From: Isoetes taiwanensis | Lineage: Eukaryota > Streptophyta > Lycopodiopsida > Isoetales > Isoetaceae | DNA: 64,000 nucleotides | Direction of reading: 5' to 3' | NCBI GenBank assembly: GCA_021234155.1 | Contig: JAJEKV010000021.1 | Span: 16,567,563 to 16,631,562 of the forward strand | In this document: in pieces, positions 7,628-45,769 of the stretch | Layout of the letters: the number at the start of each line of letters is the position of its first letter | How positions within the stretch are numbered: position 1 is the first letter of the stretch | Position numbers and translations under genes: made by a program | The notes under the pieces: generated by a model | Databases searched by the model: none | What the model saw: the letters and a program-made list of their open reading frames with translations, nothing else | Told to the model about the DNA's origin: nothing

Positions 7628-7886
7628 TTTTTTTTTTTAATTGAAGGCTAAAGTATATTGAAAATCCGTATGGTAAAAGTTACATACAAAGCTTTTAGAA
7701 GCTATTTTAAAAAGAACCTTTAGGATAGGGTAGATGCAGGACCCTAATAAAAACAGAACTATCCAAATCCAAAAAAGAATAAAAAAGTTCCTGATAGCTC
7801 AAAATAACAAAGCAGCTGGTTCCAATATTAGCATGGTGATCAGTATTCACCCAAAAATCTTCTTTTCTTAGGCTCCCTTCGAGATC
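7628..7886 (-). mobile_element. 259-bp poly(A) retroposon inserted in integrase
   Basis: The insert is bounded by a perfect 14-bp duplication, CCGTCGTCTTATTC, at 7614-7627 and 7887-7900. Its left end is a run of T, which is a 3' poly(A) tail if it is read on the minus strand. The sequence next to the tail (TTGAAGGCTAAAGTATATTG) resembles that next to the poly(T) at 28,074-28,107, so it may be the 3' end of an L1-like LINE. No Pol III boxes were found. The long duplication and tail show target-primed reverse transcription. Confidence 0.85.
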
Positions 7887-8842
7887 CCGTCGTCTTATTC
7901 ACAAAGGAGTTTTTTAGACTCCATGGCATGCCTCGTGAGATTATCTTGGATAGGGATTCTAAGTTTATGAGTGCTTTTTGGCAGGATCTATTTGCCACCA
8001 TCCAGACCAAGCTCTCCATGAGCACGGCCTATCATCCTCAGACGGATGGTCAGATGGAGCGGACCAATCGGATCATTGAAGATATACTAAGAAGTTATGT
8101 TTGGAACAAACAATCCAAGTGGGATGATTTCATCCACTTAGTAGAGTTCGCCTACAACAGTACCAAGCAGGAGTCATCCCAGATGTCTCCCTTCATGATC
8201 AATTATGGATACCAGTGCCTGACGCCTGATACTTGGCACAACCCAGTGTACTCCCAGCAAATGCTATCAGATATGCAACAGCTGGTTGAAGAGGTAAGGG
8301 GATATTTATTGGCAGCAAGAAGTTGGCAAAAGAGTATAGCCGACAGGCACAGGACTGTAAGGGAGTTCAAGGTAGGCGACAGCGTGTGGCTGAAGATTAA
8401 GGTGAAGCAAGCCAAGCTTCGCATAGGGAATTGCAAGAAACTCGCTCCCAGGTGGGCAGGTCCTTTTAAGATTTTGGAGCGGATGGGCACCCATGCCTAC
8501 AAGCTAGACCTCCCAGCACACCTCAAAGTCCATAAGGTCTTCCATGTGAGCCTCTTAAAAAGGCACAATCCGAATCCTGATGAGGTTTTGGAAATTCCAA
8601 CCCTGTTGGAAATGATGGAGGAACAAGTAGAAATTATGCCTGAATTGATTCTTGATAAGGCATTCAAGAAGACCAGAAGGTCCCAATTCCTCCAGTATTT
8701 GGTCAAGTGGAAGCACTTGCCCGTGGAAGACGCAACGTGGGTATTAAAGAAAGATCTTGAGAAGCAATACCCGGACTTCATGAGGGACTTCGATGGGCGA
8801 GTCGTCTCCGAGCTGGTCGACGCCGACTTGCCAGGTGCTTAG
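7887..8842 (+). pseudogene. pol: Integrase core, GPY/F module and chromodomain
   Basis: This is the right part of integrase after the inserted retroposon, open to a TAG at 8840. It reads VVLFTKEFFRLHGMPREIIL, then LDRDSKFMSAFWQDL (second catalytic Asp) and STAYHPQTDGQMERTNR (catalytic Glu). The C-terminal module has LAPRWAGPFKILERMG and HVSLLKRHNP (GPY/F type). The last ~60 residues are a chromodomain: FLQYLVKWKHLPVEDATWVL, KKDLEKQYPDF. In chromoviruses this domain steers integration to chromatin carrying particular histone marks. The three catalytic residues survive, but not in one readable frame. Confidence 0.9.
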
Positions 8843-12671: not shown

Positions 12672-13050
12672 AAAAAAAAAAAAAAAAAAGCATTTAAAAA
12701 TCCACCAAAATAGAAACAAATCCAGTAAATCAAACCAAACAAGCTGTTCAAATTGACTCAAATGTACCATTTTTTATACAATACTCTACCAGAATCATAG
12801 TCCCAACCATTGTGAGAATACCCTCCCGCAATCTAAAACCAATTGTGCAAACTTTATGCCTTTATATTATTTTATTGGACATATATTTGACTACATTAAA
12901 AATATTATCATTAAGTTTCTTGTGAATGCAAGTTTTGTAAAGCCTATTTTCATAATGTTATAAGCTGAGCAATGAACCTACATGTTGATAGAAAGGTGCA
13001 ACCATTGTGGATGTTTTAAACAATATAGAGTATTGACAAAGTGGAGCATG

Positions 13051-13503
13051 CTAGTTATGATATATTATGATTAGATTTCTAATGACTATGCAAGTCGGGA
13101 TATTTATGGCAAGCAAGGTTTGCAATTGTGATTCTAAAGAACAATGAATGTGTATAAAACCTAGAGAAAACAGTTTACTAAAGCAAAATCTACATATTCT
13201 AGACTGACAGCAGGTATATGTGTCCCAGCCAAGGAATGTGAATGAAACTAGTAGAAGCAGAGCTTGGTAACCAATTCTGGCATTGAGATTGTGGAAAGCA
13301 GGGTAATAAGTATCTTGAGGATTGAGCTTGGTAACATGTCCTATTTCTTGAAGATATAGGTTCGTACTGATAAATGCATTTCTTGTAGGAGTTCCTATTG
13401 TCGGGTTAAAAATGTGGGGGAATGAAAAGCCTTTCTCGGAGATATAGGAGCCCAAGGGGACATAAGAGTAGAAGGATGTTTTATGTTGTCAAAGTAGTAT
13501 TAA
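13051..13503 (-). CDS. Unrecognised exon-like frame, conserved in both segment copies (A)
   Basis: The minus-strand frame includes FYSYVPLG, FNPTIGTPTRNAFISTNLYL, QEIGHVTKLNPQDTYYPAFH and a hydrophobic LLLLVSFTFLGW stretch. The counterpart at 37,009-37,461 keeps the frame, with about ten residue changes over 134. There is no ATG at the upstream edge, which suggests an exon rather than a complete gene. The last ~40 residues look non-coding. It lies downstream, in the sense of transcription, of the TOM1-gag gene. I do not recognise the family. Conservation of the frame may only reflect recent duplication. Confidence 0.4.
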
Positions 13504-14109
13504 ATGGAGACCTTAGGGAATATGTTTTTGGAGTTATAAACCCAAGAGAAAATATTGAGGATTTTTCACTTGATTAGATGAATTAGATAGCAGTTTTAGC
13601 TTTTCTTGAGTTCGATCTAATTGCCCAATAAGCATGGAGTAGATAATTCCATAGACCCATCTTGAAAGAAATTTTTGTAGTCTTATTCAATCTGGTTAGG
13701 AGCTTTATCTCACATTTGCCTTGCTGAATGAATGCTTATATTTGAGCAAAGCAACTTGAATGAATATCTATTTTTGAGATGGGAATGCCCTTTTTGCTCT
13801 GTTTATAGAAGAAATGGCCTGAATTAAAAGCCAACACTTACTTACATGAATCAGCTGATGGGAAAACCCTAGTCCAGGACACGAGAAGAGGATGAAGGTG
13901 TCATTCTCAGTCGCCCCTATGGGCCCCTATAACAGCGGAAGCAAATACATCTACATTAGCACTAGCAATAATAGTAACAAATAACTAGCACGAAGGGTAG
14001 TGAAAACCATCCATCTGTGGCATCTGATACATCCGTATAATTATACATCAACAGAGCTCCCATCAAACTCTTGAAAAAGTTGACTGACGGTTGGGGTCTC
14101 AAAAAAGAA

Positions 14110-14140
14110 AGAAAGAAAGAATAATTTCTATCGTCCACGG
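14110..14140 (-). mobile_element. Probable LINE 3' tip with (TTTC)n tail
   Basis: Read on the minus strand, CTCCGTGGACGATA is followed by a TTTC repeat. The same CTCC(A/G)TGGACGATA motif ends LINE sequence at 39,105-39,120 with a TTCC repeat, and occurs at 53,692 with a TATTC repeat. It lies exactly at the end of the Gag-fusion frame and supplies its last residues and stop codon. Only the tip is present, so the call rests on this comparison. Confidence 0.45.
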
Positions 14141-15183
14141 AGAATTTCAGTCATACTCAGAAATTCGTCCACGGTTGAATTTCGGTCATACTCAGAAAGT
14201 TGACTGACGGTTGAATTTCGATCATACTCAGAAAGTTGACTGACGGTTGAATTTCGATCATCATACTCAGAAAGTTGACTGACGGTTGAATTTCGGTCAT
14301 ACTCAGCAGTTCCAGCAACCTGCTGCCCGATGTTATTCATGTTTCTCCATTTATGGGGACAGCGTGCCACATTATGCCCAGCCTCCTTGCAGAAGAAACA
14401 TAATCTTTTCCGACGGCATCGTTCTCGTTCCTCTTGGCTCATCTGAGCTGGTGCATTTGTCTGCCTTGCAGGTGTAGGACGACGTACATTTCCTCCAGGA
14501 CCACCAGGAGCAACAAAACCCCTCTCTCTCTGCTTAGGAAGATTTTCCTTTGTAGGCTTCCAGTGTTTGACTGCTTCTTCTTGAGTCTGCTTAATCCTAT
14601 CGTGGACTTGCTCTTTAAACTTAGAAACTCTTATAGCTTCTTCCAAGCCAGGATATGTCACTCCCCCTACTAACAGAGTTAACTCGGGCTTCAACCCACG
14701 AATAAACTTATCGGCTAACTGTGCCATAGTCATAGTAGGTCCATATGGTTGCAATGCCCTGAACTTATTGGCATATCCTTCCACAGTGTCCTCTTGTACA
14801 AGATTCTGGAATTTGTTCATTTGCTCCAGTTTAAAACCAGCAGGTAAGTAATGGAGTTTGAAAGCGTCCTTAAAAGTATCCCATGAAATTTGGCTCAGAA
14901 CCAAAAGATTACATTTCTTATACTCATCCCACCATATCTTAGCAGGTCCAGTCAGCAACATATCAGCAATAGTTGCCTTTAGCAGCTCTGGAGTTTTCTT
15001 TACTTCAAAATAGAACTCAATTCCCTTTAGCCATGCATCAGCATCCTCACCCGTGGTATCCTTACCACTGAAAGTCTCCCGTTTGAGCTGCTTCAAAACT
15101 TTATTAACTTCATCAAGGTCAGTTATGCTCGGAGGGTTATTGCTACCTCCAGCTCCCAAATTGTTATCCTCATTTCCAGACAT
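14128..15183 (-). CDS. gag: Gag domain fused to the TOM1-like last exon (locus A)
   Basis: This is the last 351 residues of the fused exon. It starts at MSGNEDNNLG, directly after the TOM1-like end (PYQHIRR), without intron or stop. A Ty3/gypsy-type Gag domain follows: FSGKDTTGEDADAWLKGIEF, LLTGPAKIWWDEYKK, FKDAFKLHYLPAGFKLEQMN and EGYANKFRALQPYG. Then come a basic linker and a CCHC knuckle, CFFCKEAGHNVARCP. The tail is a 12-residue tandem repeat (VSQLSEYDRNST). No protease or RT follows. Copy A is fully open; the locus B copy has two CAG-to-TAG stops. It is related to, but not the same as, the Gag at 3863-4906. It could be a retroelement Gag trapped as a terminal exon, or a domesticated Gag. 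Confidence 0.85.
   Translation of the reverse strand: MSGNEDNNLGAGGSNNPPSITDLDEVNKVLKQLKRETFSGKDTTGEDADAWLKGIEFYFEVKKTPELLKATIADMLLTGPAKIWWDEYKKCNLLVLSQISWDTFKDAFKLHYLPAGFKLEQMNKFQNLVQEDTVEGYANKFRALQPYGPTMTMAQLADKFIRGLKPELTLLVGGVTYPGLEEAIRVSKFKEQVHDRIKQTQEEAVKHWKPTKENLPKQRERGFVAPGGPGGNVRRPTPARQTNAPAQMSQEERERCRRKRLCFFCKEAGHNVARCPHKWRNMNNIGQQVAGTAEYDRNSTVSQLSEYDDRNSTVSQLSEYDRNSTVSQLSEYDRNSTVDEFLSMTEILRGR
14170..14307 (-). repeat. 36-bp minisatellite within the Gag tail
   Basis: About four tandem copies of a 36-bp unit encode VSQLSEYDRNST and lengthen the Gag C-terminus in frame. Copy B (about 38,085-38,150) has a different, shorter repeat at the same place, so expansion followed the duplication. 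Confidence 0.8.
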
Positions 15184-15599
15184 CCTGCGGATATGCTGAT
15201 ACGGTGTAGGTAGTGCCCGCTTTGGGGGTAGTTTCCTCAAAATATAGAGAACAAAGGCAGAGGGAGCAATTTCCACAAGCTGAAAAGGCCCATGAATAAG
15301 TTATTGCAACAATTAAAGGGAAAAAAGCATTGGCATAAAAGAAAATGCATAAACATTGTCACTTACAAAATAGACAGCAGCATTTAATACAGGATGGTCA
15401 AGAACATCGAGATCCAGATGTTTATCAAATGCAGCCCATGCCATCTGGTCCGGTATGCCAACAAGTAAACAAATCGTCCACAAAATAGCATCACGCAGAG
15501 TATTTTTAAGCAGTAAAATCTTACAATTGTAGATCTGATTATAAAGCAAGTAAAACATATTGCCGTAACCCAGCCAACCTGAATATAGGAATATATCAG

Positions 15600-15661
15600 T
15601 CAACAATCCAAAGAAATTAATCTAGAGAAATAAAAAGTTGATTTGAAAAGAAGACAAGGAC
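15600..15661 (-). promoter_or_regulatory. Intron 8 with atypical 5' splice site in locus A
   Basis: After exon 8 the intron would start GTCCTTG rather than GTAAG or GTATG as in the other introns. The acceptor TTCAG before exon 9 is at 15,579. In locus B the acceptor region of this intron is deleted. Splicing here is therefore the weakest point of the exon model. Confidence 0.4.
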
Positions 15662-17375
15662 CTCCCGAAGCTTGTTGCGACGCCCTTTAGATTCAATAGG
15701 AAACCTTTGCAGCATAAGGAAGAGCCTAACAGAAATAAAACCCAAATCAAAATTCACAAAGAAGAGCGCTCTTTACAAATTAGTTTTTAAGTTTAATGTA
15801 TCATGCTTTAAACACGGAAGCAGGGAACAAACCAACTGACTAATTCACTTAAACAACATAAGCAGAAATCACACAAAAGAGAAACCACTAAACATAAACA
15901 ACATTTTTTTCATTCAATTGCTTTAAAATATGGATTTAAGGTGGACAATCAAACTTACCAAGAAATTAATTAATTAAGACTCCCTCAAAAAACCCCTTTT
16001 GCAGAATACAATACTTACCGCCCTCCATACAACAGAAAACCAATGGCGGCAGTAAATGAAACCCCTGAACAACCATGTCAGTATATCACTGCTTTTGCGG
16101 ACCAACAAACAAAAACAAATATACCACAATACCTGCAAAGAAGATTTTAGAAACGCTGTTGAGAAAGTGGACTGGCTTCCACCACATTCCTAACCATATG
16201 AAAATCTATCATTAAAGGAAGTATCTTTAGATAGTGCAGTCAAGAGAAGGTAAAAAAACGCTTATAAAACGTTCTTACCTGAATCACATATATGACAGTG
16301 TTGACCCCCATAAAGGTTGGACGCAGTTTGTCAGTAGGTAGACAACGTGCCTATCATTATAATGACAACTTTAAGCAGATTATTTTCTTCAGAAAGCAAA
16401 CTGGTTGGTTTGAAAAATAAATGCTTATACCTGATGGTATATTTCAGCCCAAAACATAACAAGAAGGGTGTAGGTAGTAAAAAATAGGAGGCCTGGAAGG
16501 TCCAAAAGAAAAGCCTGGAGAATCTGCATTAGAGCGCAAGGTGTCCTGAATCCGTTCATATGATTATCACAAAACAATAAACATAATCAAAGTAAAGGAT
16601 TTCTTGTCAACAAAAGTTATAATTTATAAATTCTAAGGTATACCCCTATGATTCATCACAATTACTAATCTTTGTCAGGATGAAAATTTTCCATACCTCA
16701 GGCTTAAGGAACTGAACCTGCTGGCGGAAAACAAAAACAATAGCCCTCACTGCACAGTAAGATGGTACAATTTTACTAATCCAAAAATTTCTATTACAAG
16801 AACCTCGCTTTGAATGCTTTCCCTCACCTCCATTGAGCAAGAAATTCAATAAGTGGAACACTTTTTGAGTGGTCCATCCGTATTCCGGAACCCGAATCTC
16901 AATCCTTATAAGTTGTACCTGTTGATAAGGCACGAACCATTAACTTGTAGTTGTGGAGCACAAGGAACAAGGAGCGAGAATAAAGATTTCTTACAAGGGC
17001 AATAGTCGCTATAAGGGCGTAAGCCCCAGCTAGACCATAAAAGAATCGGTCTTGGACTCATTCAAAGTCTCCCACCAATCCACCCCCGACCTTAATCCCA
17101 AATACAAGTAACTAGTCACAGGCTCGTCCATCTTCAACGCTTGTTATTCTTTGCGCTCCTAACCCTAGAATTTAAGTGCTACCATGCCTTTTCTCCAAGC
17201 ATTTTCAGATCAACAGGCTCGTTTCCACATAATTAAGAAGCCAAACTAGGCAGTTATTCAAAGCTTGTGCTTTTGAACTAGCGGAGAAGATTACCTCAGA
17301 AGCATCATAAGCCCATAAACAGATAAAAACGTTTGATCTTCCTTCCAGCCGCCAAGACGGCTAAGATCCGTCCGT

Positions 17376-17440
17376 CCTCAAGTCAAGTCAAGTCAAGTCA
17401 AGTCAAGTTAAGTCCGTCCGTCCTCAAGTCAAGTCAAGCC
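17376..17440 (+). repeat. TCAAG pentamer repeat upstream of locus A
   Basis: Two runs of TCAAG (about seven and three copies) interrupt the upstream region at the point where loci B and C have unique sequence (compare 32,984-33,015 and 45,555-45,590). CCGTCCGTCCTCAAG is duplicated around the first run. This looks like slippage with loss of the original upstream bases. Confidence 0.8.
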
Positions 17441-18354
17441 ACGCAGGAATATTCGCATTACTTGCTTGAATGCTTATCTCTGGACGGTAGCATCTGTAGC
17501 TTTACCGTGCACTGACGAAAAACTGTAGCTCAAAAAATCGGCATGAGGAAGCAGAGGACTTAGCAAAAACCGACAGATTGAAGCTGCTTCAGCAGAAGCC
17601 GGCAGAGAAAACCAGTTTGTTGCCATCAGAGAAAGCTCTAGACGGCGCCAGTTTGTTGCTGAAGAGGTTTCGTTGGATTAGTTAAGATTTGTTGCAGATC
17701 TAGCTAGGTTTTTGGTCAACCCATCGTAGAAGGAACAGGTCAGTTGGTTTTCGCAATGCCGGCTTTGTAGAAAGCTTTTGGGTCCAAAAAACTAGATTAG
17801 CCAAAGCCTTATGCAACATTCGCCTCCTTTTCAACGTAAGTTTATGCATTAACAGATTTGCATTGTTCCATTTGCCACAAAACCTGCTTTTGGCCTTTCT
17901 ACAACCTGTTCTTTCAGTAACACTAAGAAAAATATTAACTTATGCCCGTGTGCTTCTATTGCAACTTACTCATTATCTTTGTACTTGGACACGTGCACAT
18001 TAACAACAATCATTAACAAAGTAAAACCACGAGGGAAGCAATTTGTCTGGATCTTAGTATTACCTATTCCATGTCAAGGTCGTGATATCATTGTTGCCTT
18101 GATGCCAAAAACATCTTTCCGTAAGCTTTTAGGATCTCATATGGAGCTCAAGGTAAATTTTCCGGGTTGTAATCAAGTAGGCTAGGCTTTCAAATGGAAG
18201 AACTTTGCAAAGGCATGCTCAAGCATGATTTTAATGGCTTCTTTCCTTCAGTAAGTCATTTGCAATAATGAAAGACTCATGAGCGCGTTTATTTCTTTTC
18301 AATTGCAAACCTAAAACAAGTTATCTAGGCATTTTTTAATGGCGAGCAATCGGA
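17441..18354. other. Upstream flank of locus A, no gene seen
   Basis: Mixed AT-rich sequence beyond the TOM1-like upstream region. Short frames only, none with a recognisable motif. Confidence 0.4.
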
Positions 18355-18735
18355 TGTAGATGCACCAATCAGGTGCAAAGTTTATGGTCACTATTTAGGA
18401 TTCTCCATTTGATAATGGAGTCCATGTGTAAAATCTATGGTTGGTTGTTTAGAATTCTCCATTTGAGTTCTACATGCTTGCAATGTTCCAATCATTTGTC
18501 CGACATGTATTGGTGCAAAGGATGCGTATATGCCGCCCATTTGGAGGGAGCTAGGCATGAGAAAGAAGCCAAATTTGGTAGTTGTTGTGATTTTCATTAA
18601 CTCAATCGTTCTAAAGTAGTTCTTAATGCAAGTATATGATGGAAAACATTTGTGAAATAGGATCTTAATCCAAAGGTCCGAGAGGGGCTTCGCTACATCA
18701 AATATTCATGCTTTTTATTTGTTATGGGTTTTTCA
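18355..18735. repeat. Repeat shared with 32,034-32,376
   Basis: About 350 bp match the stretch just left of the third TOM1-like fragment, including a 75-codon frame ending EKEAKFGSCCDFH in both. The unit holds an internal near-duplication (ATTTAGGATTCTCCATTTG and TTTAGAATTCTCCATTTG) and the inverted pair CTCCAT/ATGGAG. Near locus A it lies upstream of the gene; at 32 kb it abuts exon 2 instead, so the order has been rearranged. Confidence 0.75.
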
Positions 18736-20333
18736 ATTGTTCTTTCATGACATTGTATGATTTTAACTATCGCCAATGGATCATGTCCATTCTATCATCA
18801 AGGCCTTATGGGAATCCATAAAGGAGAAAATATAATTGTCCTCACTGCCTGTGCCAGGAAATGTGAGAATGGAAAACTTAAAGACTCTCTTTCTCCAACA
18901 AACTCATGGTCATAGCAGGGGATATGTTGAAGACGAATATAAGGCTACTTTGACCACTAGCTTTCCCACTATCCCACAGGTATACAATGCTGGTGATAAA
19001 GAAGATAATTAATGACATGAAACCATACATTTTAGATTTGTGTTGTCCTTTGATCTCTTTTGTATTTATGCACAAGGAAGGGCAGCGATTAATGAGCTTA
19101 GAAAACATTTATCACTTTCAGCACATAGCACATCATACGCAATTCGGAAATACATTCTCATGAATTTGGCCTATATGAAAGCCAAGGAAAGGCTAATAGG
19201 ATATGGCAATTGTATTAGCAATGGATTGAAGTGCGGGACAATCAACATGGCAATAGATATTTAGTCTGGTCAAATTTGAGTTTTATTGCTTTGTTGGAAT
19301 TTATTGTGAGGATCGGTGTCCAAAAGCACAGTAATATTCTTTTCTGAAAATCCAAACTTTTCTACCAGACCTTGGTGCATACGCTTCACATCATTGACAC
19401 AGCCATGAAGCTCTGCCTTTGTTGCAACCAAACAGGGAAGTTCTTCTGCACACCCTGGACGTTTTCATGCATGTCACATACAGAAGGTTTGGCACAGACC
19501 TTGCAGCAGTTGTTGTGAGTACATGTGATCAAATTGCATAGGAGAATTATGCTTTGGGTAAAACACATAAGACACCTGAATCTTGGCCATCATTCATTGT
19601 GTCTATAGTAAAAACTATTCCCTTTTCTGCTAGTTTGAAGACCAGCTAGTCTTTGTTAAAGGCTAGTCTCCATCTCTGAATGTTTGAGACCTCGGTAATC
19701 CTTGAGAAGGGTTTGTGCTACATCAAATTGTTAGAATGGTCTGGAAGATCAAATAAATTGCAGAGGTAATCCGTCAAGTATAAATAAAAAGGAAAACAAC
19801 TATGTTCAGAGAGAGATAAACCTGCTGGTTACTAGACTCTCGTTGTTCTAACAGAAAATTTGCATTTGTTAGTTGCTTCAACTGGAATAAATATGAAATA
19901 ACTTTGACGCAGATAAAATATCTGATGATGTGGCAATACGCAATTAAATGGTACTTTTGCATAAGGTACCCAGTTACAAAAGGTCTGGCACAGACCTTGC
20001 AGCAGCTGTTGGAGTACTTTTAATGTCCACCATGTTTCATACTGCTTGCTTCAAGTCTTGCCAAGCTTCTCATTAAATGTCATGTTCAAAGATATAACTG
20101 AGGAACTCAAGGTTTAGTGTGGCATGTTTCCTGTAAGCAATATAATTAGTAACAAAACTGAACATTCCAAATTATCTATGAACTTTAAAATACGTATAGA
20201 TTTTTCTTGCATTGCATATGTATTTCACGATGTGAGATAAATATGTGTATTACAAACTAAATAAGATAAGGATGAAAAAGGAAAATTAACTATGACTGGC
20301 TAGTGAATCAAGCTCAAATTCCAAGTACGCCCC
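18736..20333. other. AT-rich region, no gene seen
   Basis: About 1.6 kb with scattered short frames and no protein motif that I recognise. The phrase TCTGGCACAGACCTTGCAGCAG near 19,984 partly repeats TTGGCACAGACCTTGCAGCAG at 19,490, a small dispersed repeat. Confidence 0.4.
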
Positions 20334-20600
20334 TATCTTTTGAAATGTTAGGGATTTTGAAGGAATATAATAGAATATGAAGAGAATTTCATAGAATCTA
20401 AGGTAATCTTCGAAGAATTTTAGAGATGACGTCTAGGGCATGACTTGACTGAATCTAGAAGAATATTTCCATATCTTTTGAAATTTTAGGGATTTTGAAG
20501 GAATCTAATAGAATATGAAGAAAATTTGCACAGAATCTAAGGGAATCTTGGAAGAATTTCAGAGATGACGTCTAGGACATGACTCGACTGAATGGAGCTA
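20334..20600 (+). repeat. Two tandem ~138-bp units
   Basis: TATCTTTTGAAAT-TTAGGGATTTTGAAGGAAT starts at 20,334 and again at 20,472, and GAGATGACGTCTAGG-CATGACT recurs at matching places. The internal wording (GAATCTAAGGGAATCTTGGAAG) resembles the degenerate arrays at 59.5-61.1 kb, so it may be a distant relative of that repeat. Confidence 0.75.
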
Positions 20601-20989
20601 GACAGTTGGTTTCCTCCATGTTCTTTTGCATCTCAAGGATGTCGAGAATTGAGATCTATTCGCCTTAGCACAAAACTTCTTTTGCAACGGGTTGGAGAAG
20701 AAAAATGTTCGCGGCGGTCGCCACGATAAATTTCTTGTATATCTAATGGATGTTGGAAATGTGACATGACATAAAATTTGCTTTTCTTTTATAGCCTTCT
20801 AGAATTTGTAATGTTGGTGTGGTGAGTGTGTCATGTATCCATGGAATAATAATAATAATAATTGTATTATCAAGCCATTTAGGCCCCCAGGCCTCTATGG
20901 CAAAAATCTACAACACTAGTATGCGCTCATTCTAGAGCATTATTAAATTCAAACCCTTCCATAAGATTGAACAGATTAATTATGTCCTC

Positions 20990-23446
20990 TCTTTCTTTCC
21001 ACAATTCTCTGACTACGAACTTAGAGTATGGGCAGGAAGATCAAACAACTCCTTCAAAGCAGATATGTGAATTCCATATTTAGCTCTTATATGTTCATAA
21101 GAGTAGCATTCTAATAAAGCATGGTTTCTGTCTCCAGCTTCGGATCTAAACAACCAGGACAAAATCTCTCTTCTCGTACTAACCCGTGCATTCTACCAGT
21201 TTCAATATGTAGATTATGGGATGACAATCTAAGCTGCGAGATTGCCATTCGCTTCTTTCTACTAATATGAGAGGCTAAATAAGATTGATCTGTATATACT
21301 TTTAGGTCATCTATCTCTTCTAGATAAAACCTCTTTTTTGTGTCACCATCTGCATTTAGCTGCCACATTTTTTTAACCACTATTTCATCCAAGCCATCTA
21401 GTCGCCCATCTTCTTATATCTGCATACCATCCTCTTTCTCTTGACTGTTCTAGAGCCAGCCTAGGCCATCTATCCAAATCCATGGACAAAATCCTATTTA
21501 CATAAGTGATGGTCCTGCAAAGTGCATCTACTTCCAAGGGTAGCAAACCTGCCTCCGCAAGAAGCATGCAGTACGGTGTTTGTGGTTTTACACCAAATTC
21601 CCAAAGAAGAAACCGCTTTTGAATTTTCTCAATCTCGTGCCAGCATTTTTTAGAGAGTCCAGGTCCCCATATTGGGCTGCCATATAATATTACTGGTTTA
21701 ACTTGTATGCCAAAAAGCAACTTCCTTAGTTTCCAATGCTCGAAATTATTCACTTTACACTGGTGCATCATATTATAATAAGCCCTGAGGCCTCCGGAAG
21801 CTCTCTTTCATATTGCGACCACCCATCTATAGTCATTTGTGATCTCAATTCCAAGATATTTATATGCTTTTACCTGCTCCAAGGGAATCCCTCCTACTGT
21901 AAAAAGGGTAGAATCACGACCACCAACAACCATTACCTTGGACTTAGCTGCATTTATCTGCATACCTTTATGCTCACAAAACTCTTGCAGCACATCTAAA
22001 TGCTGCTGAAGCCCATTGGCAGTTTTGGAAATCAAAACTATATCATCAGCAAATAGTAATAATTGCACAATATACTTACCAAGTTTTGCGCCAACACCAC
22101 CAAGCCTGGCCAGCCACCCCTCCAGCTCATCGATAAAGAGACCAAAAAACATTGGGGAACAAGGACACCCTTGTTTAACCCCAATGGTGTTCTCTATGCA
22201 TTCATGTCTTGTAAAGGGAAAAGAGAGTTCAACCATTACCTTTTTGTATAGACAAGCAATCGCTTGCCTTATTTCTAATGGCACCTGTAAAAATTCTAAG
22301 CGTGAAGCAAGATCTGTCCTTTTAACCTTATCAAATGCTTTAGTTAAATCAATAAAAGCAAAATATCTCTTATTTCTTGACCCCTTTGCACCCTCAGCCA
22401 GTACCCGCAATGTGGCCAGATGATCAAGTGTGGAGTAAGCTTCTCTAAAACCTGCTTGTCCAATCGCTCGGCCATCATGAGAGTCCGCCCAAGCTGAAAG
22501 TTTTTGTTCAATCATAGAAGCAAACAATTTGGCAAATAAACTACCCACAAGGATCGTGCGATAGTTCTTTATGTCATCCTTATCTCCTGATTTGTATATT
22601 GGAATAACTCTATTCACACACCAATCTTGGGGAAACTGTCCTGCTAAAGGAGCATCATTACAAATTTTGGCCAATAAAACATGAAGTGACGTACCTCCCC
22701 ATTTAAATAATTCAGCTGACATGCCATTAGCATCAGTGGCTCGGCCATTTCCCATATTTTTCAAAGCTTCTTGCACATTTTGCAATGTAAAGATTGGAGA
22801 TGCATCCCCTTCACAGGCCATCTGGTTCATGTGTGGCGTATTATATAGCTCCTCTACCCATGATAACAACTCCTTTCTAGAGATATCTCCGATCAAATTT
22901 TTCTTTTTGGAGCGGTTAAAAAACCTCTTTGGATCAGTATCCATCTCATGCATAAGCATTTCAGTGTGTTTTCTCAGCCAAGCTCTTTTTTTACGCTTAA
23001 TAAGCTTTCTATAAAGCCCAAGTTTATCAGGATCTTTAGATTGTTTCCACACCTCTTTTGCTGTTCTGCAATCCCTATCAAACCACTTGCTATTTACCCA
23101 ACTCGCTCTCTTTGGTTTTGTAAGGCCAAAATTGGTTTGTGCTACATCCAAAATGATGCTCATTAGAGCTTTGCTTCTATTTCGTAATGATCCTTTCCAT
23201 TGCATCTCCATCAACTTTGCATCCAATGCTTTTTCATAATTATTTGCAAGTCTATATGACAGCTTTAGCTTTGGTAACGGTATTGCATCTCTCACTTTGC
23301 GCTTTGTTTTCATATCCAATGTGAACACATAAGGGACATGATCAGAATCAATATTCCTCTCTAGCATGTAAAAATCCGTTACTAGATTTACTGCATTTGG
23401 ATCCCCAATAAGATAATCAATAGTACTGCTCCCATTTGGCTGATCA
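20990..23446 (-). pseudogene. LINE reverse transcriptase and C-terminal zinc-binding region
   Basis: The main frame is 23,367-21,808 (519 codons; the frame is open further upstream). It has PIYKSGDKDDIKNYRTI, FIDLTKAFDKVKRTDL, GVKQGCPCSPMFFGLFIDEL and the catalytic FADD at about residues 439-442. A frameshift near 21,800 moves to 21,771-21,385, and another near 21,390 to the C-terminus, with SSHNLHIETGRMHGLVREER and the cysteine pair FCPGC. This order and this C-terminal motif are usual for LINE pol proteins. The upstream edge is cut by the DNA element at 23,447. Confidence 0.9.
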
Positions 23447-24336
23447 TTAGGGCGGATTTAGGGTCTCAAAATGGCCCATATCTTGGATGCCAGAATTCCA
23501 CGTCATGTTTCTCGCGACCAATGATGTTTGCGCATTTTTTTCCAAAGTCAGTATTAGTTGGCAAGTAGAAAGAGGAGCAGGCTTACTTGGCATCCACATG
23601 GCAAAATTTCATAGGACATGTTTGTGCATTCATTGCAACCACATTAATGGCCCGCATTTTTCGAAAATCGTATCGCGGACCAAAATAATGGCTACTTTTC
23701 CCGCCTACTGTGCACATGCCCACATGCACCAACCACCTTATCAAAATTTGGCACCAAGATTTCCATTGTTCACATTAGCGCCGCATTGCATCCTCTCCGC
23801 CTTCGCTTCATTTTGGAATCCAAGTCTCCAATAGTGTCTCTGTTTTTTTTATGGGCGAGCATAGAGTTAAGCAACAACGGCGAGGCGATGTGCGGACAAG
23901 CAAACGTACGTTACATGCCATGTTTTTACTACCCAAATTTTCATTCTGAAGTTTTCCTACTTTTCAGCTCTTCCCATTCATCGTATTGCTCCCTGCCATT
24001 CATTCTTACAATTCAACGACCGACCAGATTCTCTAATTGCATCCATCATTGCTCCTAGTACTCCTACATTGCTTCCGCAGCTTCATCACTTACAAAACAA
24101 TAAAGGCATGATTATGGAAGGATATCTATCCATAGGCTCGTGGGTGAGAATGCTATCCTTAACGAAGGGTGACTATGGAGTTACATCGCCGGAGCGACAT
24201 TCATACGCAATGAATAGGTAGAACTATAGGGTTCAAAATAAATGCTATGGATAGTATATTGCAAAAAAAAAAAGGGAAGGGGGGGGAAGGGATTTGAAGA
24301 GGAGGATATTTGCAAATTTGCACCCTCAATAATACA

Positions 24337-25767
24337 TGGATCACACCATGCGAAAATGCATATGCACTTTGTAAATGTGTAGTGAGATTTCGCGTCATGT
24401 GATCCTTGCTTTTTTTTCCCTCTTCTTGATTTATATTCACTCACCGAATCAAATATTTTTCTTTGGGCTATATTTATCGATGTCGGGATTTGAGACTAGG
24501 GAAAAGCATTACTAGCATCGTTGTTGTCCAACATATGGACATAAGAGACATGCTTTTCCAAGATATACATTCAGGGCAATGGGCATCTAGTTTTACGCTG
24601 TAAAGTTGTGGGAGCCGAGCTTCATTCCCCATGACCTCTTTTAAGCGAATTGTGCAAGCCTTATGAGAATGGTGTCCTTGCAATGAAGAAATGTTTGATA
24701 AGACGTGCATCCGTGGTTGTTGAAAAATGAGTTACAAAATATTTGCTCCATTAGAGGTGTTTACTAATGCCAATGCCACAAAAAGCTCCAAAGATATATT
24801 GTATAAAATGTCGCCATTAGCCTTTGGATCAGTTAACTCAAAGTGTCACATATGGAAACATTGTTAGGTTTGATAAAATAACATAAAAATCTTATTTAAT
24901 AAAGCTTTGGTTGTTGGTAAAGTGTTGGCTTATTGATTAAGTGTTTGTATTTTGCTTTGGGACCCTCTTTGAAAAAGTTTAGTTCATAAAACATAATATA
25001 ACTTGGAATGATACATATTTTATATGCAAATGGGAGACTATTGATGAGGGACTTGGTATTATTATCTATTGACAACAAACAAGAAAGTGGATCACACCAT
25101 GCGAATTTAGTATATTCCAACCTTTTAGCTTATACAAAATTCGCTTGGTGTGATCTTTTTGAAAAAGATGACTTCCTATAGTAAAATTACTTTGATTATC
25201 TTTTAATAAAAGAAATATATATGTGTCTTATTTGAAGTTAAGTGTGGATATGTGACGTGCTCATTTATTGATAAAGTGTTTGCTTTTTTTGAAAAGGCTA
25301 ATAACTTTATGTACTACTAGAGTTGGTAAAGTATTTTAGATGCAAATAGGATGCTTGATGTGATCCTTCTTAAAAAAAGATATGCTCTTTGAAAATGACT
25401 AATAACTTTATGCACTTGGGGTGGTAAAGCATTAAATGAGAAGGGGTACTTGTGTTTAATTTTAATTTGACAACAAATAAGAAAGTGGATCACACCATGC
25501 GAATTTAGTGTGTCCCTTTTTTTTGCATATGGGTGTGATACATCTTGAAAAAAAAAAGCTTTCAAGTAAAAGGAAAGAAAGAAATATCTTATTTAAAGTA
25601 TAAAGTGTTAGTATGTAAAGTGTTGGTTTATTAAAATACTATTTGTTTACGCTAAGTTGTAAGTTCAATATTTGTGTTTCTATTTATTTTTTTACGCAAG
25701 GATCACACTAGGCGAATTTCTTATATGCAATTACTTCTGCGCATGAAGATTTCGCATCATATGATCC
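24337..25767. repeat. Recurrent inverted-repeat pairs within the TIR element
   Basis: The word GGATCACACCATGCGAA(T) occurs forward near 24,337, 25,089, 25,487 and 25,700, and in reverse complement near 24,387, 25,136, 25,350, 25,525 (weak) and 25,749. Forward and reverse copies pair 30-50 bases apart, so each pair can form a stem of about 18-20 bp with a short loop. The pair at 25,089/25,136 is nearly perfect. Confidence 0.75.
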
Positions 25768-32033: not shown

Positions 32034-32376
32034 CTGTGTGCAAAGTTTATGGTCAGCTATTTAGGATTCTCCATTTGATAATGGAGTCCATGAGTAAAAT
32101 CTATGGTTGGTTGTTTAGAATTCTCCATTTGAGTTCTACATGCTTGCAATGTTCCAATCATTTGTCTGATGCAGGGCTGGTGCAGGCGATGCAGATATGC
32201 TGCCATTTGGAGGGAGTTAGGCATGAGAAAGAAGCCAAATTTGGTAGCTGTTGTGATTTTCATTAACTCACTGTTCTAAAGTAGTTCTTAATGCAAGTAT
32301 ATGATGGAAAACGTTTGTGAAATAGGATCTTAATCCAGTGTCTGAGTTCATGCTTTTTATTTGTTATGGTTTTTCA
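32034..32376. repeat. Second copy of the 18.4-kb repeat
   Basis: Matches 18,367-18,730 with a few indels. It ends at TTTTTCAAT, after which TOM1-like exon 2 sequence (CCTTATAAG, plus strand) begins directly. The join falls at CAAT, which both parents share. Confidence 0.75.
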
Positions 32377-33185
32377 ATCCTTATAAGTTGTACCTGTTGA
32401 TAAGGCACGAACCATTAACTTGTAGTTGTGGAGCACAAGGAATAAGGAGCGAGAATAAAGATTCCTTACAAGGGCAATAGTTGCTATAAGGGCGTAAGCC
32501 CCAGCTAGACCATAAAAGAATCGGTCTTGCCAAACTTTGGACTCATTCAAAGTCTCCCGCCAATCCACCCCCGACCTTAATCCCAAATACAAGTAACTAG
32601 TCACAGGCCCATCCATCTTCAATGCTTGTTATTCTTTGCGCTCCTAACCCTAGAATTTAAGTGCTACCATGCCTTTTCTCCAAGCACTTTCAGATCAACA
32701 GGCTCGTTTCCACATAATTAAGAAGCCAAACTAGGCAGTTATTCAAAACTTGTGCTTTTGAACTAGCTGGGCCAAATGGGTAGTAAATGAACCTCAATAA
32801 AAGCCGCAAATAAGCGCCCACCGGAGAAGATTACCTCAGAAGCATCATAAGCCCATAAACAGATAAAAACACTTGATCTTCCTTCCAGCCGCCTGCTATT
32901 CTTCCTCTGGGGATACTACTGCTGGAAAAAGAAGCTTGATCCTGTCCTGGGCTGTGCCAAGACGGCTAAGATCCGTCCGTCCTCAAGTCATGGAAACATC
33001 TGATCCGTTGACGCCACGCAGGAATATTCGCATTACTTGCTTGGATGCTTATCTCAGGACGGTTCAGATTTCATCCTTGTCGGATTTCTTCGTTTCCTTC
33101 CACCCAAAAGGTGAGGATCATTGCCTTTTTTCGGCTTTCAATATGCCACGGACTATTTGGTTTTGGACGGCTCAGATGCGCTCGT
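32376..33185 (-). pseudogene. Third TOM1-like fragment: exon 1 and start of exon 2
   Basis: Exon 1 is intact at 32,616-32,470 (49 codons): LGLRSGVDWRETLNESKVWQ and FFYGLAGAYALIATIAL, then a GTAAGG donor. Intron 1 and the acceptor CAACAG are present, but exon 2 is cut after about 17 bases at 32,376. The upstream region to 33,185 matches locus B to 45,755. Without exons 3-11 it cannot encode the protein. The cut coincides with the site where locus B carries its 3.6-kb insertion. Confidence 0.85.
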
Positions 33186-37461: not shown

Positions 37462-39080
37462 ATGGAGACCTTAGGGAATATGTTTTTGGAGTTATAAACC
37501 CAAGAGAAAATATTGAGGATTTTTCACTTGAATAAATGAATTAGATAGCAGTTTTAGCTTTTCTTGAGTTCGATCTAATCGCCCCAATAAGCATGGAGTA
37601 GATAATTCCATAGAACCCATCTTGAAAGAAAATTTTGAAGCCTTATTCAATCTGGTCAGGAGCTCTATCTCACATTTGCCTTGCTGAATGAATGCTTATA
37701 TTTGAGCAGAGCGACTTGAATGAATATCTATTTTTGAGATGGGAATGCCCTTTTTACGCTTGCTCTGTTTATAAAAGAAATGGCCTGAATTAAAAGCCAA
37801 CACTTACTTACATGAATCAGTTGATGGGAAAACCCTAGTCCAGGACACAAGAAGAGGACGAGGGTGTCATTCTCACTCGCCCCTATGGGCCCCTATAACA
37901 GCGGAAGCAAATACATCTACATCAGCACTAGCAATAATAGCAACAAATAACTAGCACGAAGGGTAGTGAAAACCATCCATCTGTCGCATCTGATACATTC
38001 ATATAATTATACATCAACAGAGCTCCCACCCAGCTCAGACTCTTGAAAAAGTTGACTGACGGTTGTGGTCTCAAAAAACACAAAAAAAAAAGTTTCGGTC
38101 ATACGCAACAGTTCTAGCAACCTGCTCATACTCAACAGTTCTAGCAACCTGTTGCCCGACAATATTCATGTTTCTCCATTTACGGGGACAACGTGCCGCA
38201 TTATGCCCAGCCTCCTTGCAGAAGAAACATAATTTTTCCCGACGGCATCGTTCTCGTTCCTCCTGGCTCATTTGAGCTGGTGCATTTGTCTGCCTTGCAG
38301 GTATAGGACGTACATTTCCTCCAGGACCACCAGGAGCCACAAAACCCCTCTCTCTCTGCTTAGAAAGATTTTTCCTTGCAGGCTTCCAGTGTTTGGCTGC
38401 TTCTTCTCGAGTCTGCTTAATCCTATCGTGGACTTGCTCTTTAAACTTAGAAACTCTAATAGCTTCTTCTAAGCTAGGATATGTCACTCCCCCTACTAAC
38501 AGCGTTAGCTCGGGCTTCAACCCACGAATAAACTTATCGGCTAACTGTGTCACAGTCATAGTAGGTCCATATGGCTACAATGCCCTGAATTTATTGGCAT
38601 ATCCTTCCACAGTGTCCTCTTGGACAAGATTCTGGAATTTGTTCATTTGCTCCAGTTTAAAACCAGCAGGTAAGTAATGGAGTTTGAAAGCGTCCTTAAA
38701 AATAACCCATGAAATTTGGCTCAGAACCAAAAGATTATCTTTCTTATACTCATCCCACCATATCTTAGCAGGTCCAGTCAGCAACATATCAGCAATAGTT
38801 GCCTTTAGCAGCTCTGGAGTTTTCTTTACTTCAAAATAGAACTCAATTCCCTTTAGCCATGCATCAGCATCCTCACCCGTGGTATCCTTACCATTGAAAC
38901 TCTCCCGTTTGAGCTACTTCAAAACTTTATTAACTTCATCAAGGTCTATTATGCTCGGAGGGTTATTGCTACCTCCAACTCCCGAATTGTCACCCTCGTT
39001 TCCAGGCATCCTGCGGATATGCTGGTACGGTGTAGGTAGTGCTCGCTTTGGGGGTAATTTCCTCAAAATATAGAGAACAA

Positions 39081-39724
39081 GGAAGGAAGGAAGGAAGGTA
39101 TTTTTATCGTCCATGGAGATCAATCGGTCTATGGGACCCAATACAAAAGCGCAGCAAGTGGATTACTATCCAGATTAAAAAACCCCCGCCCCGAAGTGTT
39201 TTCGAGGGAAAAACCGTGGCAGCAATCAGCCTGCTGACAAACTGTTCCAATATACAAAATGCAAAAACACACAAATATATACACTCATGCACCGCACCCG
39301 TAGTGCCTGATCAGCGGGCAGCCGGGGACAAAGGTGAGCTCGCAGATCCAAGCCTCCCGAATGTATGACCCCAGAGCACGCATCGATGGTGTGTTCATCA
39401 GCAAATGTAATGGGCAAGTCCGGCCGCATTTAAATGAGCCGATCGGCCCGGATCCGACCAATGCTGGGCAACTCTGGAAAGTGTGAGACCCATCCTCAAT
39501 GGCACTCGCTTGACAAAGACCGACAGAGCTCCCGCTCCGGCAGAGGCTCCCCAATCCACCTGCGCGTCTCGATGCGAAGATGGTGGGCACCTGTGCGAAT
39601 GGAGGCAATGAGTCTGCGCCTTTTCAGGGGCAGCTGGGAACGCAGGTAGAGCTGCGGGCCCCGGGCTAACACGGGGTTGATGTGCTCCTTGTAATGGGCC
39701 ATTTTGACCTGCTCTAGAGCGCCG
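39081..39724 (-). mobile_element. 5'-truncated LINE in the last exon of locus B
   Basis: The minus-strand frame from 39,724 contains LKRRRLIASIRTGAHHLRIE and PLPERELCR, the cysteine-rich C-terminal region found in LINE pol proteins; the LINE at 21.1 kb has a related SSHNLHIETGRMHG. Further pieces are in shifted frames. The 3' end is CTCCATGGACGATA followed by a TTCC microsatellite at 39,081-39,097. Copy A has no such insert. Confidence 0.75.
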
Positions 39725-42589
39725 GAGGGAGCAATTTCCACAAGCTGAAAAGGCCCATGAATAAGTTATTGCAATAATTAAAGGTGAAAAAGCATTGGCA
39801 TAAAAGAAAATGCATAAACATTGTCACTTACAAAATGGACAGCAACATTTAATACAGGATGGTCAAGAACATCGAGATCCAGATGTTTATCAAATGCACC
39901 CATGCCCTCTGGTCCAGTATGCCAACAAGTAAACAAATCGTCCACAAAATAGCATCACGCAGAGTATTTTTAAGCAACAAAATCTTACAATTGTATATCT
40001 AATTATAAAGCAAGTAAAACAAATTGCCGTAATCCAGCCATCAGTCAACAATCCAAAGAAATTAATCTAGAGAAATAAAAAGTTGATTTGAAAAGAAGAC
40101 AAGGACCTCCCGAAGCTTTTTGCGACGCCCTTTAGATTCAATAGGAAACCTTTGCAGCATAAGGAAGAGCCTAATAGAAATAAAACCCAAATCAAAATTC
40201 ACAAAGAAGAGTGCTCGTTACAAATTAGCTTTTAAGTTTAATGTATTGTTCCCATGCTTTAAACACGAAAGCAGGGAACAAACCAAATGACTAATTCACT
40301 TAAACAACATAAGCAGAAATCACACAAAAGAGAAACCACTAAACATAAACAACATTTTTTTCATTCGATTGCTTTAAAATATGGATTCAAGTGTGGACAA
40401 CCAGACTTACCAAGAAATTAATTAATTAAGACTCCCTCAAAAAACCTCTTTTTGCATAATACAATACTTACCGCCCTCCATACAGCAGAAAACCAATGGC
40501 GGCAGCAAATGAAACCCCTGAACAACCATGTCAGACAACTGATATCACTGCTTTTGCAGACCAACAAACAGAAACAAATATACCACAATACCTGCAAAGA
40601 AGATTTTAGAAACGCTGCTGAGAAAGTTTAACCATATGAAAAACTATCATTAAAGGAAGTATCTTTAGATAGAGCACTCAAGAGAAGGGAAAAAAACGCT
40701 TATAAAACGTTCTTACCTGAATTACATATATGACAGTGTTGGCCCCCATAAAGGTTGGACGCAGTTTGTCAGTAGGTAGACTACGTGCCTATCATTATAG
40801 TGACAACTTTAAGCAGATTATTTTCTTCAGAAAGCAAACTGGTAGGTTCGAAAAATAAATGCTTATACCTGATGGTATATTTCAGCCTAAAACAAAACAA
40901 GAAGGGTATAGGTAGTAAAAAATAGTAGGCCTGGAAGGTCCAAAAGAAAGCCTGGAGAATCTGCATTAGAGCGCAAGGTGTCCTGAATCCGTTCATATGA
41001 TTATCACAAAACAATAAACATAATCAAAGTAAAGGATTTCTTGTCAACAAAAGTTATAATTTATAAATTCTAAGGTATATCCCTAGGATTCGTCACAATT
41101 ACTAATCTTTGTCAGGATGAAAATTTTCCATACCTCAGGCTTAAGAAACTGAACCTGCTGGCGGAAAACAAAAACAACAGCCCTCACTGCACAGTAAGAT
41201 GGTACAATTTTACTACTCTATTACAAGAACCTCGCTTTGAATGCTTTCCCTCACCTCCATTGACCAAGAAATTCAATAAGTGGAACACTTTTTGAGTGGT
41301 CCATCCGTATTCCGGAGTCCGAATCTCAATCCTAACAAGTATTAAAATGAAACACACTTATTTAAGAAGTGCGTTTGAAAGATTCCTTCTGAAAATTTAT
41401 AAAATTCTGAAATCCCTCTAAAAAGGGCCTTTTTATTACCTTTAGTCCAAAGATTTATAAAACTGCTCGTGAAAACAGACATTTTAAGAAGACTTAGTAT
41501 TAAGGAAAAACACACACACACAAAAAATCCCATTGTAGAGGGGGAAAGAACTACAATGAAATTCAAAGATTTACTATGGGGCAAATTCGTATGAAGAAAT
41601 TAGATGCTTTTGTACCTTGTCCCTGAAAATTTTTATATTAGCTGTTTTAGAAGACAGGAAATTTGCTATTTCACAACCATTTTGGCTAAACATCCTAATG
41701 GACCTTAAAACACATTGGGAGGCAGTTGAACAAACTTCTTGAATGACAAACCATTGTTTTTGCATCACATAGTATTACAATTACCAATACATCCACGATA
41801 TTTGTAGTTAAGCTGAAGTTTTAGTTGATGATGCAGTATAAATTTATACCGAGGATACAAAAGTTGAAGTAATGAAGCCATGTGATTACATGCCCTCCTT
41901 TTTTATTCTCGGAGATGTATTTTGAACGCACATACCAATCTACAACATGGTGATGCTCATGAGATAGTCAATCTCCTTAGCAATGTTGAGCATATTCATC
42001 ACAATTACGCTATCTCAGCGTGGGGGCACCATGCACATTTCTCTGGCGAAGAAGTATTCGTCACATTTTACCCTTTCCTAAATATTTTGTAAATAAATAG
42101 GTAAACTTCTGAGGGGTTGCTACTCCTCGTTCCCCTCTGGATAAACCACGTGGTTTCCTTCTAGTCAAACACCTGTGTCACCATAATATTTTGGAGTTCT
42201 TTGCCTTTAGTAGCAATTTTTTAGCTGGCTGAAGTGAAGTTCGCATGTATGTAGAGAAAAAAAAGTAGAAATAACGACATGATTCGACTACTTTATGCTC
42301 TAACATTGCATTACAAGCTCAGAAATTTTAGAACCGTTTTAGAACTTTTTAGACTAAAAAACTAAGAAAAGTGTGTAAAATTATCCCTTATGTGTGTTAC
42401 TTTAGTAGTTTTCAGTTGCCAAACCCTTTGGCGAGTAAGAAAGACCCCAAAAGATTTTACACGATATATACTTTACCTCTGGACTGCATATATATATACA
42501 TATATATACAAGAAAATTAATACGTCCTACGGCGCATTGTTCCAATTTTAGCATGTTCCTACGTGCAAGTTCTTATAAAAGAATCTCTT

Positions 42590-44388: not shown

Positions 44389-45769
44389 CCAGAAATTTAT
44401 TTTGAAGACTTAATGTCCACGCATTGTCATCGCGGTATACATAAGTCTTTAGCAAGACGGATGAGCAAATAAGAGCAAGTATATAAGACGAAGAGCAAGC
44501 GTCTTCGACTCCAACTTGCGCTTCAAAGTGTAAGTTTGTTCAATGAGGCATACTTCCATGTGAAAATGTTTGCTTCAATGAGGCAATGTCAAAATGTGTT
44601 GCATTTTTTACAGTTTTGTTCATAGTTTTGTACTGATTTTGAAAACTTTGAATAAAATACCTTTTTTGACACTTTAGTGTGCTTGCTGTTTTTTTAAATG
44701 TCTATTTTGTTTAGTTTTTGAAAATATTACTATTTCTCAAACCAAACTAGGGGCCAAAAAGGGATGTCAAACAATTTTGAATGGAAGCTAAGTTCACACC
44801 CCCCCTCAAAAATGATGCCTAAAATTTTTAAATTGTCACACTTGTCACAAATATACCATGAAAAGGGACCTTTTTGGGGGGATTTTAGGGAATCTTTCAA
44901 AGATTCCTTTTGAAGTGCGTTTTGAGCAAATTAGTGCGTTTCATTTTAAACTTTGTTTCCTTATAAGTTGTACCTGTTGATAAGGCACAAACCATTAACT
45001 TGTAGATGTGGAGCACAAGGAATAAGGAGCGAGAATAAAGATTCCTTACAAGGGCAATAGTTGCTATAAGGGCGTAAGCCCCAGCTAGACCATAAAAGAA
45101 TCGGTCTTGCCAAACTTTGGACTCATTCAAAGTCTCCCACCAATCCACCCCCGACCTTAATCCCAAATACAAGGAACTAGTCACAGGCCTGTCCATCTTC
45201 AATGCTTGTTATTCTTTGTGCTCCTAACCCTAGAATTTAAGTGCTACCATGCCTTTTCTCCAAGCACTTTCAGATCAACAGGCTCGTTTCCATATAATTA
45301 AGAAGCCAAACTAGGCAGTTATTTGTGCTTTTGAACTAGCTGGGCCAAATGGGTAGTAAATGAACCTCAATAAAAGCGGCAAATAAGCGCCCACCGGAGA
45401 AGATTACCTCAGAAGCATCATAAGCCCATAAACAGATAAAAACGCTTGATCTTCCTTCCAGCTGCCCTGCTATTCTTCCTCTGGGGATACTACTGCTGGA
45501 AAAGGAAGCTTGATCCTGTCCTGGGCTGTGCCAAGACGGCTAAGATCCGTCCTTCCTCAAGTCGTGGCAACATCTGATCCGTTGACGCCACGCAGGAATA
45601 TTCGCATTACTTGCTTGGATGCTTATCTCTGGATAGTTGTCGGATTTCTTCGCTGCCTTCCACCCAAAAGGTGAGGATCATTGCCCTTTTTCGGCTTTCA
45701 ATATGCCACAGACTATTTGGTTTTGGACGGCTCAGATGCGCTTTTACCTTTGCCGCATTATCTGAAACC

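Follow-up and report, generated by a model that had tools for sequence, protein, structure and literature searches.

Retrotransposon Gag proteins fused to host proteins have been reported in plants, among them HadGAG1-3 of sunflower (PMC9784723) and Ctrg10, a GAG with KELP, which Wang and Han, as cited in PMC9784723, give as an example of GAG domestication by fusion. A part for such fusions in the arms race with viruses has been suggested in the same source, so that a host-Gag fusion is a kind of gene already known, and what makes the published cases persuasive, as far as the available part of that article describes them, is their transcripts and their conservation. A different class of chimeric genes, at tandem-duplication breakpoints, is described for Drosophila yakuba in the available parts of PMC5460883 and PMC6776367. 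Here we describe a stretch of 64,000 nucleotides of the Isoetes taiwanensis genome (the window, C1025:16567563-16631562), in which the last exon of a TOM1/TOM3-like gene passes in frame into a retrotransposon gag. A first-pass annotation had read this locus (locus A) as a fusion gene whose membrane-anchored Gag might act on viral or retroelement RNA. For TOM1, the accessible text of PMC3234234 states a role in tobamovirus replication; it is known for TOM1, not for the gene of this cluster.

The locus resembles HadGAG1-3 and Ctrg10, as presented in PMC9784723, in that a retrotransposon Gag is combined with a host protein in a multi-exon locus devoid of long terminal repeats (LTRs) and an antiviral role has been suggested. 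Unlike it, those fusions have known transcripts, and homologues of them exist in other species, whereas TOM1-Gag is described here from its DNA and its Gag drifts neutrally. With the chimeras of D. yakuba, to the extent that the two sources set them out, it shares a local duplication array and a gene end joined to foreign sequence, but here the partner is a retrotransposon gag and the breakpoint origin is unproven. No TOM1-Gag fusion was found among the matches listed in literature searches, and no TOM1 partner is named in the available part of PMC9784723.

An in-frame TOM1-gag joint in four local copies

A search of the 1.66-Gb assembly (1110 contigs) with the PF06454 profile gave 50 exon-level matches, and those on contig C1025 represent a single TOM1-like gene in five copies, each on the minus strand. 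Locus A and locus B are the two main copies inside the window and both are fused to gag, as are copies 2 and 5 outside it; copy 1 is an unfused neighbor. The four fused copies share one orientation and are spread over no more than about 207 kb of this contig, copy 5 being ~183 kb away from locus A. The other three copies and the parts of locus A are the following (window positions unless a contig is named):

C1025 about 16546-16549k, minus strand: copy 1, unfused (PF06454 search)
C1025 16558-16561k, minus strand: copy 2, fused (PF06454 search)
C1025 16765-16768k, minus strand: copy 5 (L011), fused, with the joint at 16765881-16765904 (PF06454 search)
16995..17131, minus strand: TOM1-like exon 1 of locus A, with a private deletion of 10 bp that are present in copies 1, 2, 5 and B
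15367..16918, minus strand: TOM1-like exons 2-10 of locus A with introns, by the exon limits that give an unbroken copy 1 of 288 amino acids (aa)
16918-16828, 16749-16697, 16523-16431 and 16350-16279, minus strand: exons 2-5 of locus A (copy 1 exon limits)
16205-16133, 16064-16019, 15725-15662, 15578-15525 and 15444-15367, minus strand: exons 6-10 of locus A (copy 1 exon limits)
15187..15279, minus strand: TOM1 exon 11 of locus A without a stop codon of its own; copy 1 has TGA at the same place
15186..15188, minus strand: TOM1-gag joint, 15187/15186 (comparison with copy 1 and element leaders)
14128..15183, minus strand: Gag of locus A, a reading frame of 351 aa with a tandem-repeat tail near its 3' end (translation, Pfam)
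12696..14143, minus strand: flank F, downstream of the gag remnant in each of the four fused copies (matches among 40 of 2130 candidates scored)

Exon 11 of locus A runs from 15279 downwards into the Gag frame and meets no stop until 14128, as the first-pass annotation had stated. The TOM1 end LPPKRALPTPYQHIRR (the frame opens with LVEIAPSAFVLYILRKLPPKRALPTPYQHIRR) directly precedes the MSGNEDNN... of Gag. The junction does lie at the expected stop, since copy 1 reads ...CCTATCCGC-TGA at the position where locus A reads ...CATATCCGC-AGGATG, and the introns have been retained. Similarity to the element starts in locus A at GCAGG-ATG, 5 nt upstream of the gag ATG; TOM1 of copy 1 ends CCGC, so that the end of TOM1 and the leader of gag share the 2-nt GC at 15188-15187. 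A 24-nt pattern of the joint, searched with zero mismatches, has four matches genome-wide, which are copies 2, A, B and 5, and the same pattern read backwards has none. Being common to four copies, the joint is older than the duplications that spread it; the proposal that the fusion in locus B predates the duplication is right to that extent, but locus B itself is broken. The in-frame TOM1-Gag joint in the DNA is therefore genuine and older than its duplications.

Copies 1 and 5 match the TOM1/TOM3/THH1 family (PF06454) by domain. The ends of the fused copies differ from those of the family: among seven other TOM1-like loci, four (L012, L013, L014 and L018) end three codons past HPI or its equivalent, about at the stop of copy 1, and these four and copy 1 thus stop at, or just past, the point where gag starts in the fused copies. 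A second altered end in the TOM1-like family, at nearly the same place as the gag joint, is seen in three partial copies of another TOM1-like gene that keep their introns (L015, L016 and L017, on G000:C1058, C1007 and C285), where the same foreign sequence replaces the 3' end just ahead of the stop (HPIPL followed by VLVGIGSNYAAG...).

The fused frame of locus A matches Retrotrans_gag (55.2 bits) and Ty3_capsid (44.8 bits), and the end of the TOM1 domain, over residues 2-25 of the exon-11/Gag frame, scores 23 bits, below the cut-off of 25. A CCHC knuckle, CFFCKEAGHNVARC (C-X2-C-X4-H-X4-C), was read from the translation at 14400-14359. The Gag had been described as complete with a CCHC knuckle; domains and knuckle are indeed there, as in Ty3/gypsy Gag (PF03732, PF19259), but the frame ends in a tandem-repeat tail, and A, B and copy 5 lack 69 nt (23 codons) close to the N terminus of Gag that are present in copy 2 and in the nine element loci aligned. 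The repeat at the end of the frame (window 14128-14300, minus strand) codes for RNSTVSQLSEYD and resembles the start of flank F (CAACCGTCAGTCAACTTT); after it comes a TGGACGATAGAAATTATTCTTTC tail like the end of an insert in locus B.

Where does this gag come from? The gag DNA of locus A has 40 long matches in the genome (40 of 171 candidates scored; copy 5 gag is not among the 40, hence the list is incomplete), of which 37 lie outside the cluster with 76-96% identity. On the leader side, 24 of 27 match pieces start at query nt 2-4, nt 8 being the A of the gag ATG. Some version of the leader TTCCAGGTGAATAGCAGGATG is found at all ten gag starts of nine element loci (L058 has it without the ATG), and a TGGTATCAGAGC site, which we take to be a tRNA primer-binding site, lies ~100-130 nt upstream of the gag start, exact in four of the ten, near in two and with none recognizable in four. 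L056 is flanked by direct repeats of 0.84-0.88 kb with 87.6% identity and unmapped ends, the second of which reaches the end of the stretch analyzed. Leaders, TGGTATCAGAGC sites and the L056 repeats mark the parent of gag as an LTR retrotransposon. Judged by its domains and knuckle in locus A, and by dispersed copies with repeats, TGGTATCAGAGC site and pol-like sequence, the fused Gag can be assigned to a dispersed Ty3/gypsy LTR-element family. Gag copies with their own LTRs had been named as a sign of a chance insertion unique to the locus; such a family exists, but the joint itself is present in four copies. A protein search with the Gag frame of locus A returned only two distant Gag proteins, from a database that is apparently plant-poor.

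The element remnant differs among the fused copies. Copy 2 retains ~3.6 kb of element sequence ahead of flank F, with protease- and reverse transcriptase (RT)-like sequence downstream of gag. A, B and copy 5 have gag or part of it, with the common 69-nt deletion, and then flank F; in contrast to a Ty3/gypsy element, no protease or polymerase follows the gag of locus A. Among the candidates scored, A, B and copy 5 have flank F in full and copy 2 has it in two pieces; the other matches are partial.

Decay of the copies and constraint on the two parts

The 10-bp deletion at 17055/17054 shifts the frame of locus A, with TAG at codon 34 (17032-17030) after 33 translated codons. The view that all eleven exons join in phase is therefore incorrect for this copy, which is out of frame after exon 1 and has no single spliced PF06454 frame; exons 2-11 have the same lengths as in copy 1 and no other gap relative to it, which is probably why all of them had been taken as in phase. 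By eye, there is no in-frame ATG downstream of the deletion before exon 4, so a later start would drop the first helices. Locus A is thus unable to encode the fusion from the TOM1 start and is a pseudogene. Locus B likewise lacks an intact fused frame; its parts, and a separate orphan exon, are the following:

38126..39009, minus strand: gag of locus B, with two in-frame stops (alignment with other gag copies)
39081..39725, no strand assigned: ~645-bp insert in exon 11 of locus B with a (TTCC)n tail, resembling a short or long interspersed element (SINE or LINE) by eye
39725..41340, minus strand: TOM1-like exons 2-10 and start of exon 11 of locus B, decayed (deletions and a stop)
44958..45466, minus strand: exon 1 and upstream of locus B, separated from exon 2 by ~3.6 kb
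32374..33182, minus strand: orphan exon 1 and upstream copy of the TOM1-like gene (sequence matches in the window)

The TOM1 part of locus B has an exon-6 deletion, single-base losses and one stop, and together with the insert and the gag stops these make it unable to encode the fusion. One of the gag stops is at the same codon as a stop of copy 2, where locus A has CAA and the aligned element copies mostly CAG; it may come either from shared descent or from two separate origins. The insert in exon 11 is perhaps the 3' end of a SINE or LINE.

Copy 1 is an ordinary TOM1 of 288 aa that ends PYQPIR-TGA without gag, in a single spliced frame that scores 470.8 bits with PF06454 (profile 4-272 of 273). 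Elsewhere in the genome, where the first-pass annotation had proposed to search for an unbroken fusion, copy 5 reads open over 520 aa with both domains above cut-off: PF06454 at 426.4 bits in two stretches and PF03732 (Retrotrans_gag) at 48.6 bits. Its Ty3_capsid match, at 27.3 bits, is below the cut-off of 29.1. Copy 2 has its 11 exons in frame and encodes 380 aa, with a stop early in gag. Both fused frames are without the CCHC knuckle, which lies past the stop of copy 2 and is lost from copy 5, and the RNA-binding part of the proposed mechanism is therefore missing there. Exon 2 of copy 5 has an in-frame insertion of 18 codons that looks like an imperfect partial duplication of the exon. A supposed lack of a splice acceptor at exon 6 was dropped, as the acceptor GATAG/ATTTTC gives the correct frame in copies 1, 2 and 5.

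Constraint was judged from the changes private to each copy, given as nonsynonymous:synonymous against a neutral expectation of ~71-72% nonsynonymous, with transitions weighted four to one. In gag these changes number 11:2 in A, 7:4 in B, 14:8 in copy 2 (two of them stops) and 13:5 in copy 5, and none is below neutral (P 0.92, 0.39, 0.27 and 0.59, respectively). The count for copy 5 uses 142 codons and omits those past reliable alignment; a looser count over a longer stretch gives 24:6. Counted in a similar way, nine element copies range from 2:13 (L051) to 23:9 (L058), and the value for L051 indicates that constraint can be revealed where present. All four fused copies therefore fit neutrality in the Gag part, with small counts, and purifying selection on Gag between the copies, for which a test had been suggested, was not detected. 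For TOM1, the joint codons were omitted (286 and 289 for copy 1, 288 for copy 2) and the private changes number 1:2 in copy 1, 5:7 in copy 2, 5:2 in A, 6:3 in copy 5 and 11:6 in B (one of them a stop); of these, only the count of copy 2 falls below neutral. The ratio of private rates in exons to those in introns is 1.08 for copy 1, 0.80 for copy 2, 0.97 for A, 0.76 for copy 5 and 2.04 for B, and only B differs (p 0.05). On these small counts TOM1 may be under weak constraint and Gag is without any sign of it. The array looks like one in neutral decay, in which the fusion is probably drifting.

C-to-T changes at CG/CHG account for 37 of the 136 private changes in the four fused copies versus 0 of 22 in copy 1. 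The share is 0.32-0.37 in fused pairs, and outside the cluster 0.39 in L013/L014 and 0.38 in L015/L017; no conclusion on a methylation footprint or silencing was drawn from the excess, as these two outside TOM1-like pairs have the same share.

Origin of the joint

The copies are close to one another, with pairwise synonymous divergence (dS) in TOM1 of 0.035-0.088. In gag, A, B and copy 2 are 5-7% different from one another, and copy 5 is set apart by length changes of its own. Copy 1 differs from the fused copies by 3.2-3.8%, no more than these differ among themselves (3.8-4.6%), and only 22 sites set it apart from all of them. Of 20 sites that divide the copies two against three, six group A with B and every other pair has three at most. 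The tree of copies is accordingly star-like, with a short stem linking copy 1 to the fused copies. The upstream flank of locus A (17282-20738) is common to copy 5 (L011/L059), and copy 1, B and the orphan exon have another; these two flanks show that the array was reshuffled after the first duplication.

How did a TOM1 end come to be joined to gag? We favor, with a probability of about 0.82, a chance rearrangement followed by local duplication and then mostly drift. It is the best fit to an element similarity that begins 5 nt before the ATG, with GC on both sides. The last exon of one TOM1/TOM3-like copy would have been joined to the gag start in a Ty3/gypsy LTR fragment, the gag in frame taking the place of the TOM1 stop codon, as ~1/3 of such joints would by chance. 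The cause could have been end joining, or slippage during replication where the two sides overlap by the 2-nt GC. The joined stretch (flank F, element fragment and gene) would then have been duplicated locally to give four fused copies beside one normal gene. Later decay has cost locus A its TOM1 through the 10-bp deletion, wrecked locus B and brought an early stop into the gag of copy 2. Copy 5 is left as the only one in which a full TOM1 is followed by the capsid part of Gag, 520 aa in all, though with no zinc knuckle. Any transcripts of copies 2 and 5 would yield TOM1 with a C-terminal tail, most likely with no selected role.

The first local duplication may have had its breakpoint at this very rearrangement. 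A breakpoint of this kind predicts a fifth F-gag with its own leader at the far end, and none was found among the candidates scored for flank F. The 6 kb to the right of copy 5 hold only the flank shared with locus A. That the joint arose exactly at the breakpoint of a tandem duplication is thus possible and unproven. The missing fifth F-gag weighs against our reading, and so do three other observations: TOM1 of copy 2 (5:7) is below neutral at P=0.036, in one of five tests and uncorrected; all 11 TOM1 exons are in frame in copies 2 and 5 despite 3-5% divergence; and in copy 5 the frame survives the changes in length of exon 2 and of that part of gag that can be aligned. The last of these was left unused as a sign of selection, the events being too few and partly duplications with uncertain alignment.

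Several other explanations may be weighed against this one. A whole LTR element could have inserted at the 3' end of TOM1, with its 5' LTR and leader later deleted to 5 nt before gag, a route suggested by the long element stretch retained in copy 2 and by the abundance of element copies in the genome. The first 2.65 kb at the 5' end of L056, comprising repeat and leader, have no match of at least 80 bp in L009, L010, L011 or L049, which cover copies 1, 2 and 5, and the 3' flank of copy 1 (about 3.1 kb) has none beside the fused copies in L049, the window or L011; a single rearrangement is simpler. We regard the insertion route as a less probable variant, compatible with a chance rearrangement since it leads to the same end state. 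Capture and spread of TOM1 and gag pieces by a Helitron or Pack-type transposon would agree with the introns kept in the duplicated pieces and with the TOM1 fragments L015-L017, which lie on three contigs and share an altered 3' end; it is very improbable given four fused copies that all point the same way on a single contig, no more than ~207 kb apart.

The remaining alternatives concern the state of the copies. That the 10-bp gap of locus A is an assembly error and the copy intact is hardly credible: the assembly has the 10 bp in each of the other four copies, exons 2-11 match copy 1 in length throughout, and the Gag of locus A, at 11:2, would be unconstrained regardless. Alternatively, copy 5, and perhaps copy 2, could be a working fusion, a seven-helix TOM1 that carries a capsid tail from Gag and would act at the vacuole membrane on RNA or particles of tobamoviruses or retroelements. 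The open frame of copy 5 and its two domains above cut-off speak for it, and so do the plant host-Gag fusions for which PMC9784723, in its available part, reports a suggested antiviral role. It is nonetheless very unlikely, since the Gag of copy 5 changes neutrally and is truncated, with its capsid match under the cut-off and its knuckle lost, its TOM1 (6:3) is not below neutral, and A and B are broken.

Elsewhere in the window, 3863-8842 (plus strand) holds a Ty3/gypsy element unlike the fused gag family, with gag, protease, RT, RNase H and integrase zinc-binding matches. LINE-like pieces occupy 21808-27970 (minus strand), with an RT frame at 21808-23367 and an endonuclease frame at 27491-27970, and a frame at 51455-52234 (minus strand) has a DUF4283 match of 50.7 bits.

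Implications for Gag domestication

The idea that a Gag anchored in a membrane acts on RNA of viruses or retroelements is unsupported, with A and B broken, Gag neutral and the knuckle absent from the fused frames of copies 2 and 5, and from the sequence, production or selective upkeep of a fused protein is not indicated. It is a long shot that copy 5 is a living gene, a vacuole-membrane TOM1 with a Gag capsid tail. Such a gene would place a self-assembling domain where tobamoviruses copy their RNA, and a natural decoy or poison of replication complexes would then have come from one rearrangement.

One contig thus holds an ordered series, from a normal gene to a gene joined in frame to gag and then to four copies at different stages of decay. 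Such a series allows the frequency of accidental in-frame host-Gag joints to be asked, which is the background for claims of Gag domestication in plants. If copy 5 is expressed, it would provide a case in which the fusion of a capsid protein to a virus host factor can be tested.

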